64,000 nt of DNA from Betaproteobacteria bacterium (GTDB lineage: Bacteria; Pseudomonadota; Gammaproteobacteria; Burkholderiales; CAIKXV01): assembly GCA_947458265.1 (NCBI GenBank), contig CANGYF010000018.1, positions 1-64,000 of the forward strand. Direction: 5' to 3'. Position numbers and translations under genes: made by a program. The notes under the pieces were generated by a model, which saw only the letters and a list, made by a program, of their open reading frames with translations, was not told where the DNA came from and did not search any database. Shown piece by piece: positions 21,771 to 22,547 of the stretch (positions are counted from its first letter, which is position 1; the number at the start of each line of letters is the position of its first letter).

Positions 21771-22547
21771 CTAGTCTTCCCAGACCTTTTCGGGCAGGGG
21801 CAATCCCTTGAGGTCTTCCGCCGTCAGTGGCTGGTCTGGCTCGATGCCCATCCTGGACAGCAGGAACTGCAGCTGCCGGGCGTGCTGCGCCGAATGCCAG
21901 GCACAACGCTCGAGCAGGACCGACAGCGGCTGCGCGCCGAAATAGGTCTGCACCACCTGCGTTGCGGTCGGGTCGGTCTTCTCGTGCCGTGCCCACCAGT
22001 CGTGCAGCCGCTGGCGTACCTCGCCGGCGTAGTCGGCCACCTGCTGCGGACGGGTGATCGAATCCTCCGGCGGCTTCACCGGTTGCTCGATCGTGAACTC
22101 GATGCCCTCGACCGCCTCGAGCATCGCTTCCTGGATGCGCACGAGATGGTGCGCAAGCTCGCGGTAGGTGCGCTTGCGGCCGGACATCGGCAGCAGCTCG
22201 TTGAACGTCTCCTGGGGCAGCTGCGGCACGAAACGCTGCGCGCCGGCGAGCACGACCTGTGCACGCTGCACCAGCTGGGCAGGGGTGAGCGCCGGCCCGC
22301 CGTCGAACTTCAGGCCGAGGAACCTGGCCACTTCGGGGATCACCTGGCCGAGCACCCATTGGTCGCCACGTGCCACCACCGGGGTGGTCTTGGCGCCGAG
22401 CGCGGTCAGTTCGGCAAGCCCTTGCGGGTCGTTGAAGATATCGATGATGTCGAATTCGATATCGAGTCGCGAAAGAAACTCTTTCGTCCGGAGGCAGCTC
22501 GTTCAGCCAGGCTTGGTGAAGAAGCGGATGCGTTCGGCCTGTGCCAT
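21771..22547 (-). CDS. Selenoprotein: Sec-containing glutaredoxin domain fused to DinB/YfiT-like domain
   Basis: The ATG at 22547 has a strong Shine-Dalgarno sequence (AAGGAGGT). Fourteen codons later there is an in-frame TGA (22505-22503), and the frame then stays open for 243 codons to TAG. Read as Sec15, the protein is 258 residues. The N-terminal domain (1 to about 85) is a glutaredoxin: RFFTKPG, then Sec-Thr-Ser-Cys (U15, C18), a following helix, and the cis-proline loop KTTPVV (P56). About 95-240 is DinB-like, with possible metal-binding His in LAHHLV and the HxxxH of AWHSAQHARQ. The gene heads the selA-selB-selC operon. Sec insertion rests on fold, SECIS hairpin and context. An ordinary gene caller would start at GTG 22379 and lose the redox site. 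Confidence 0.9.
22463..22505 (-). promoter_or_regulatory. UGA-Sec codon and bacterial SECIS-like hairpin
   Basis: The UGA is at 22505-22503. After a 16-nt gap the mRNA forms a perfect 6-bp stem CGAAAG (22486-22481) and CTTTCG (22475-22470), with apical loop AGTTT. An outer CGAG/CTCG helix (22501-22498 with 22466-22463) can extend it. The loop lies 22 nt from UGA, and its second base is G followed by U. These fit the known requirements for SelB recognition: a short stem, a G in the first two loop bases and about 16-37 nt from UGA. Confidence 0.82.

Follow-up and report, generated by a model that had tools for sequence, protein, structure and literature searches.

Glutaredoxins that contain selenocysteine (Sec) are a catalogued selenoprotein family, listed under Pfam PF00462 with a UxxC motif (PMC13188914, Table 1). 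The product of the gene described here, grx-dinB, has the glutaredoxin (Grx) fold, UxxC and cis-Pro in common with them, but the catalogued entry names a Grx domain only, whereas here a DinB domain is added and the gene leads a selABC run. DinB/YfiT (STL) enzymes such as BstA-H are four-helix bundles with three His, and the H-x-x-x-H spacing of their H160/H164 is the one found here (PMC5815605). In B. subtilis the enzymes of this fold are metal-dependent thiol transferases with three invariant His, all eight of which use bacillithiol (PMC5815605), and a mycobacterial DinB enzyme binds its thiol at the metal (PMC10950700). The accessible text of the former paper notes no Grx domain or Sec in STL enzymes, unlike the grx-dinB product, whose own activity is a prediction.

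On the redoxin side, NrdH-redoxins resemble this product in having a Grx fold without the GG motif, they give the best NCBIfam score, and their structures 1h75 and 4fiw are among the fold matches; the grx-dinB product differs in scoring under the family cut-off, in its fusion to DinB and in its Sec. UXX-star and GUXX-star (NCBIfam) are likewise small Grx-like Sec domains, some of them fused, but the product stays under the cut-off of all their models (NF041212, 33.7 against 66; NF041211, 27.8 against 100; NF047338, 21 against 97; NF045501, 16.4 against 325). Concerning gene order, the selABC-fdhA clusters of Alpha-, Beta- and Gammaproteobacteria have a selenoprotein gene beside selA-selB-selC, as described in the accessible part of PMC1794560; here, grx-dinB holds the selenoprotein slot, and in the formate dehydrogenase alpha matches of the genome we could find no internal stop and no UGA.

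In the window, by which we mean the whole 64,000-nucleotide stretch of DNA that was analysed, complement(21771..22547) most probably encodes a selenoprotein in which a Grx fold with the pair Sec15-Thr-Ser-Cys18 is joined to a DinB bundle predicted to bind metal via His134, His218 and His222; the bound metal, the reaction catalysed and the incorporation of selenium are what we infer. The gene is very likely a member of an overlooked selenoprotein family, because many other bacteria carry it with the same UGA. The family would be a new one made from known parts, and is apparently uncatalogued. The accessible part of the 2026 catalogue of 119 selenoprotein families has Sec-Grx and UXX-star fusions and no DinB or Grx-DinB family (PMC13188914), no selenoprotein or redoxin model of NCBIfam (June 2026) matches the product above cut-off, and a literature search joining DinB with selenoprotein returned unrelated papers only and no Grx-DinB selenoprotein family, nor did such a family appear among the papers listed by our other literature searches. 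Earlier marine metagenome lists, in their accessible portions, give 'Grx' and 'Grx-like' UxxC selenoproteins and name DinB zero times; some of these entries may be the Grx half of the Grx-DinB family.

A UGA-containing gene at the head of a selenocysteine gene run

The preliminary description had read, from the letters alone, a Shine-Dalgarno sequence, an ATG, 14 codons, an in-frame TGA and 243 open codons, and its coordinates, strand and stop all agree with the sequence: on the minus strand, the frame opens with the ATG at 22547 and closes with TAG (Table 1). The TGA takes the first position of the redox motif in Pro-Gly-Sec-Thr-Ser-Cys.

Table 1. Features of the grx-dinB locus, in window coordinates.
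Feature	Position	Strand	Basis and remarks
grx-dinB selenoprotein gene	21771..22547	-	258 codons if UGA is Sec15; TAG stop
Shine-Dalgarno AAGGAGG	22553..22559	-	read from sequence
In-frame UGA, codon 15, in P-G-Sec-T-S-C	22503..22505	-	sequence and homologue comparison
Predicted SECIS hairpin CGAAAGA-GUU-UCUUUCG, loop 23 nt after UGA	22470..22486	-	fold prediction; criteria of PMC13188914
Glutaredoxin-fold domain, residues 9-63	22359..22523	-	Pfam Glutaredoxin PF00462, E=1.6e-11; fold match
DinB_2 domain, residues 122-226, four-helix bundle	21870..22184	-	Pfam PF12867, E=3.5e-8; fold match
His134, predicted metal ligand	22146..22148	-	invariant
His218-x-x-x-His222, predicted metal ligands	21882..21896	-	invariant
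selA	20374..21762	-	TIGR00474, 588.8 bits; GTG start 21762, 8 nt past grx-dinB stop
selB	18427..20367	-	TIGR00475, 432.2 bits
selC, tRNA-Sec, anticodon tca	18311..18406	-	ARAGORN; Rfam RF01852, 72.9 bits

The presence of SelA, SelB and tRNA-Sec, on which a Sec reading of UGA had been said to depend, is established beside the gene itself, where profile matches, ARAGORN and Rfam recovered all three. With gaps of 8 nt between grx-dinB and selA, 6 nt between selA and selB and 20 nt between selB and selC, the locus is a single compact run of four genes headed by grx-dinB. The genome also contains selD, making selA, selB, selC and selD all present, and this selD has a TGA at its own catalytic position (SHGGGUGCK; G000:C4:104922-105860, L150). 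A second UGA-containing Grx-DinB paralogue, 39% identical, lies on contig C1 of the same genome (G000:C1:86980-87723, L002); it has TGA at the same codon, and its 17-nt hairpin sequence differs by one base. Of the 11 window genes checked, 7 end in TGA as a normal stop codon, so UGA is not reassigned wholesale, and a change of the code as a whole is out.

Annotation trims the gene at the UGA and leaves a DinB stub, and the genes are therefore misread. A call from GTG 22379 had been predicted, and database proteins P0002, P0003 and P0007 are exactly of this kind, with 202 aa and a start, MVARGD, at the residue of that GTG. More generally, the part before the UGA is absent from all 11 of the closest matches (P0002-P0012, 69-92% identity, among the best 120 of 1201 proteins).

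Recurrence of the UGA and its association with selA

A DNA pattern requiring TGA at the codon-15 site was scanned over a species-genome collection and matched at least 119 loci. Among the 119 listed, 118 read through as members of the Grx-DinB family, 98 of them with an in-frame DinB motif, 19 running off the end of the locus first and one (L029) meeting a stop after 153 codons; the remaining locus, from Ligilactobacillus (L089), was discarded as a chance match. According to their record titles, the loci listed come mostly from Alpha-, Beta- and Gammaproteobacteria and mostly from metagenome bins, with a few from Deltaproteobacteria, Binatia, Acidobacteria and Chloroflexi, and Reyranella soli NBRC 108950 (L066) is a named strain with a UGA copy.

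A sample of the order gave 50 full-length copies in 35 of 399 genomes, 42 with one in-frame TGA and 8 stop-free; none of the 50 has a TAA or TAG inside. Codon 15 is TGA in 34 and Cys in 6 of the 40 copies that were opened. Within the genus, a TGA copy of the gene or of its paralogue is present in 10 of the 11 genomes searched and absent from one that is 84% complete (G005), every full-length copy found has the same TGA, and a TGA copy also occurs in a single-contig genome of the phylum. The objection that the TGA might be a sequencing error therefore fails, because it recurs in the 10 genus genomes and in the single-contig genome.

The homologue search gave 1201 proteins at E<=0.001, the best 120 of which were listed; the residue counts use the 107 that span both residue 5 and residue 20 and leave out the other 13, mostly annotated stubs, in which one of the two is missing. 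Cys stands at position 15, the site of the UGA, in 106 of the 107 homologues counted (best 120 of 1201). It had been anticipated that homologues would align Cys with the UGA, would share the Grx-DinB layout and would include UGA-containing ones beside sel genes, and all three were found, the last both among the pattern loci and in the genomes of the order.

Selection on the gene points the same way. Across 11 in-genus copies, a set that includes the same contigs twice (L015/L128 and L112/L126), the dN/dS values are 0.07 (codons 1-14), 0.10 (codons 16-60) and 0.19 (codons 61-258); once pairs without synonymous change had been dropped, the first value rests on 44 of 55 pairs and each of the other two on 53 of 55. 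Constraint before and just after the UGA is thus no less than on the DinB part.

Sampling 369 genomes across the class added one full-length copy, and a phylum-wide sample of 349 had full-length copies in two genomes, the window's own included, so that co-occurrence with selA was tested on the order sample. There, all 27 genomes with a TGA copy have selA above cut-off, against 2 of the 8 genomes whose copy is stop-free (Fisher p=1.7e-5, related genomes not having been thinned beforehand); overall, 107 of 399 genomes have it. In 23 of the 27 TGA genomes the best copy and selA share a contig and are no more than 6.5 kb apart, and in 13 no more than 500 bp. They are on different contigs in the other four (G061, G631, G012 and G002); in G002 the copy counted is the paralogue, and a cut copy of the first gene abuts selA at the end of a contig.

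SECIS-like hairpins and the reading of the UGA

According to the accessible part of PMC13188914, the bacterial SECIS model requires a spacing of 16-37 nt between UGA and loop, a loop length of 3-9 nt, a G at one of the first two loop positions, 4-16 bp of stem, and a minimum free energy (MFE) of -7.5 or lower. The window hairpin, which is predicted to recruit SelB, lies within these limits in its loop (GUU, with G in the first two bases), its 7-bp stem and its 23-nt spacing; by itself it reaches -5.2 kcal/mol, short of -7.5, and the fold over 59 nt reaches -10.5. Thermodynamic stability was of no help as SECIS evidence, with z of +0.80 and +0.60 against shuffles, the former for the 59-nt window fold, which is no more stable than its shuffles.

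Hairpins of the sequence CGAAAGA-GUU-UCUUUCG or close variants of it (class I, the window's own included) occur in 57 of 108 distinct sequences, and in 55 of these the best match is a GUU loop 23 nt after the UGA; 22 of the 57 reach -7.5 alone and 51 over a 50-nt region. Among the other 51 sequences, 44 best matches are a GUG loop, or GUG within a 5-nt loop, at 36-37 nt (class II). The class I stem is paired in 397 of 399 cells and in 397 for shuffles, without covariation, because the stem hardly varies. The class II stem is paired in 277 of 306 cells against a shuffle maximum of 266 (500 shuffles), and an upstream stem overlapping it in 302 of 357 against a maximum of 299, relatedness not being kept in either set of shuffles.

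Codon choice within the hairpin is strongly biased. In 106 distinct Sec genes, Phe24 is TTT in 95, against 18% of 882 other Phe codons, Leu25 is CTT in 64, against 8% of 2541 other Leu codons, and Lys22 is AAA in 78, against 35% elsewhere; Ser26 is nearly fixed in Sec forms (120/123) and not in Cys forms (8/46). When the window gene was resampled with synonymous codons, a SECIS-like hairpin as good or better arose in 5 of 1000 trials, and for four chosen sequences in 5, 4, 30 and 6 of 1000. The control on Cys genes comprised six genes only, of which L196 also has a fair hairpin (-7.4).

In a tree of Sec and Cys rows, made by a quick method with weak deep forks, the Cys rows were 40 from the best matches listed plus 6 loci, and no direction between Sec and Cys was drawn. 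The two SECIS positions in the family (L003-L121) follow this tree roughly. A third hairpin variant, CCAAGG-AGUU-CCUUGG, is seen in L069, L072 and L105. SECIS-like hairpins at two positions make the family a good system for studying how SECIS elements move.

These results bear on what the UGA encodes. Were it an ordinary stop or an assembly error, the locus would hold nothing more than the 202-residue DinB protein from GTG 22379, at whose first residue three database proteins do start, in a genome where TGA normally ends genes. This is very improbable, given that codons 1-14 and 16-60 are under purifying selection, that all full-length copies found in the genus share this TGA with the single-contig genome, and that position 15 is either TGA or a Cys codon in the 40 copies opened, with no TAA or TAG in any of the 50; on the strength of this recurrence, of dN/dS and of the codon-15 counts, we reject both a plain stop and a sequencing error. 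That the UGA is read through by suppression, with Trp or another residue inserted, is hardly credible either: the UGA form is accompanied by selA in all 27 genomes, the residue that it replaces in homologues is Cys, and SECIS-like hairpins follow it with a codon bias inside them.

Domain architecture and possible function

The read-through product exceeds the Pfam gathering score of both PF00462 and PF12867. An AlphaFold2 model (Sec as Cys, 52-row alignment) has a pLDDT of 94.4 and a pTM of 0.90, and in Foldseek its N-terminal part matched the small redoxins BC3987, cGrx1 and NrdH, while DinB/YfiT bundles such as 6iz2 (TMt 0.78) matched the C-terminal part. 'Dithiol cGrx1' (7c10), which presumably derives from a selenoprotein Grx, is the top PDB sequence match and has a TMt of 0.87 by fold. 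Whole-length Foldseek matches to glutathione transferases have rmsd of 10.5-16.6 Å and mean little, and among the 50 matches listed no entry is named as Grx and DinB together.

The residues expected of both domains are conserved. Pro56, His134, His218 and His222 are present in all 107 homologues counted and Cys18 in 106 (best 120 of 1201), and Cys18 is invariant across the Sec and Cys rows of the alignment. Every one of the 123 Sec rows and of the 46 Cys rows carries the three DinB His, which for H222 and partly for H218 follows from the selection of rows and for H134 does not, and they are retained in a Rhizobium plasmid homologue at 27% identity. A DinB-like domain with an HxxxH, as had been proposed, is borne out by the PF12867 match, the invariant His218 and His222 and the DinB/YfiT fold.

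The redoxin half has the features by which classical glutaredoxins are recognised, namely the Pfam gathering score, C/UxxC and cis-Pro. The GG motif marks the GSH site of classical GSH-binding glutaredoxins, and we did not find it at positions 67/68 of the Sec and Cys rows: at position 67, 45 of 46 Cys rows have A and 88 of 123 Sec rows have G, and at position 68 all 46 Cys rows and 111 of the 123 Sec rows have Q. The glutaredoxin fold with Sec-Thr-Ser-Cys and cis-Pro put forward in the preliminary description therefore stands, on PF00462 and the residue counts, but by its sequence this half appears to resemble NrdH more than a classical glutaredoxin, since Sec/Cys15, Cys18 and the cis-Pro are kept and the GG motif is absent.

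From the conserved Sec/Cys15-Cys18 and three His, together with the likeness to DinB thiol enzymes, we infer a thiol/selenol-exchange pair at a metal site, and we tentatively favour a mechanism in which the Sec/Cys redox pair serves a metal-bound site of thiol transfer. With UGA codon 15 read as Sec, this pair would be a fast thiol/selenol exchanger, and a small substrate bound at the DinB metal centre would be reduced by it or receive a thiol from it. The outcome would be a transfer, an isomerisation or a detoxification that depends on the thiol and belongs to accessory catabolic pathways. Relative to the Cys of related lineages, Sec would speed the exchange, and the lineage would retain its Sec machinery partly for this enzyme, in the place of fdhA beside selABC.

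Two other functions would leave the protein a selenoprotein. It could be a pure disulfide reductase of NrdH type whose DinB part serves for docking or dimerisation alone, without any chemistry at a metal; the NrdH model is the best NCBIfam match (40.2 bits, under the cut-off of 85.75), the invariant Cys18 is what a dithiol reductase would require, and the protein lacks the GG motif that GSH-binding glutaredoxins have, but the three metal-site His kept in all Sec and Cys rows, in every homologue counted and even in the distant Rhizobium protein make this somewhat unlikely. We are similarly doubtful of a DinB (STL) S-transferase that would depend on glutathione and use its Grx domain only to regenerate the thiol after turnover, against which speaks the missing GSH-binding motif in that domain, even though a glutathione synthetase gene (gshB) is present in the genome, a divergent GST gene occurs at 18 of 138 loci, and DinB enzymes with thiol-transferase activity are described (accessible parts of PMC5815605 and PMC10950700). 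More speculative than either, and rather improbable, is a self-contained selenol transferase or isomerase in which Grx is a built-in cofactor, its selenol entering the DinB metal site in place of bacillithiol, mycothiol or glutathione, the Sec machinery being kept for it and its SECIS lying at two positions.

With an exchange pair serving the metal site, as we favour, or otherwise, a selenoprotein of this kind joins the families able to explain why the costly Sec machinery is kept where formate dehydrogenase is without Sec. It ties Sec to the DinB thiol-transferase superfamily, for which our literature search found no selenoprotein, and because related lineages have the same architecture with either Sec or Cys, the family offers a good system for what Sec buys.

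The neighbours of 138 loci were surveyed with a simple gene caller of our own, some contigs having been fetched twice. They differ greatly between lineages; the recurrent ones are TctC receptors (39), mnmA (31), selA (31), GST (18), a glyoxalase-like protein (16) and selB (13), and amidases and CoA transferases are found as well. The L002 paralogue, which occurs in several genomes of the genus, immediately follows genes for RidA and a DUF1989 protein. Four plasmid-borne copies were opened, and two of them lie in an isochorismatase-amidase run or in an SDR/acyl-CoA cluster. In Roseomonas marmotae plasmid p1318-3 (L200), the Cys form stands in a run of isochorismatase, Grx-DinB, AtzG-like and amidase genes, with an Asp/Glu racemase gene nearby, a neighbourhood that may serve as a lead to the substrate. 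Taken together, the neighbours suggest accessory catabolism; as a clue to the substrate they are too varied, and no substrate follows from them.

At the 31 loci with mnmA (tRNA 2-thiouridylase), L094 and L032 among them, this gene lies upstream on the same strand. In the window itself, an HNH endonuclease gene directly follows the tRNA-Sec gene (17667-18260, minus strand), and on the other side a divergent run (22675-26813, plus strand) encodes an HpcH/HpaI aldolase, two CoA-ligase subunits and an acyl-CoA dehydrogenase.
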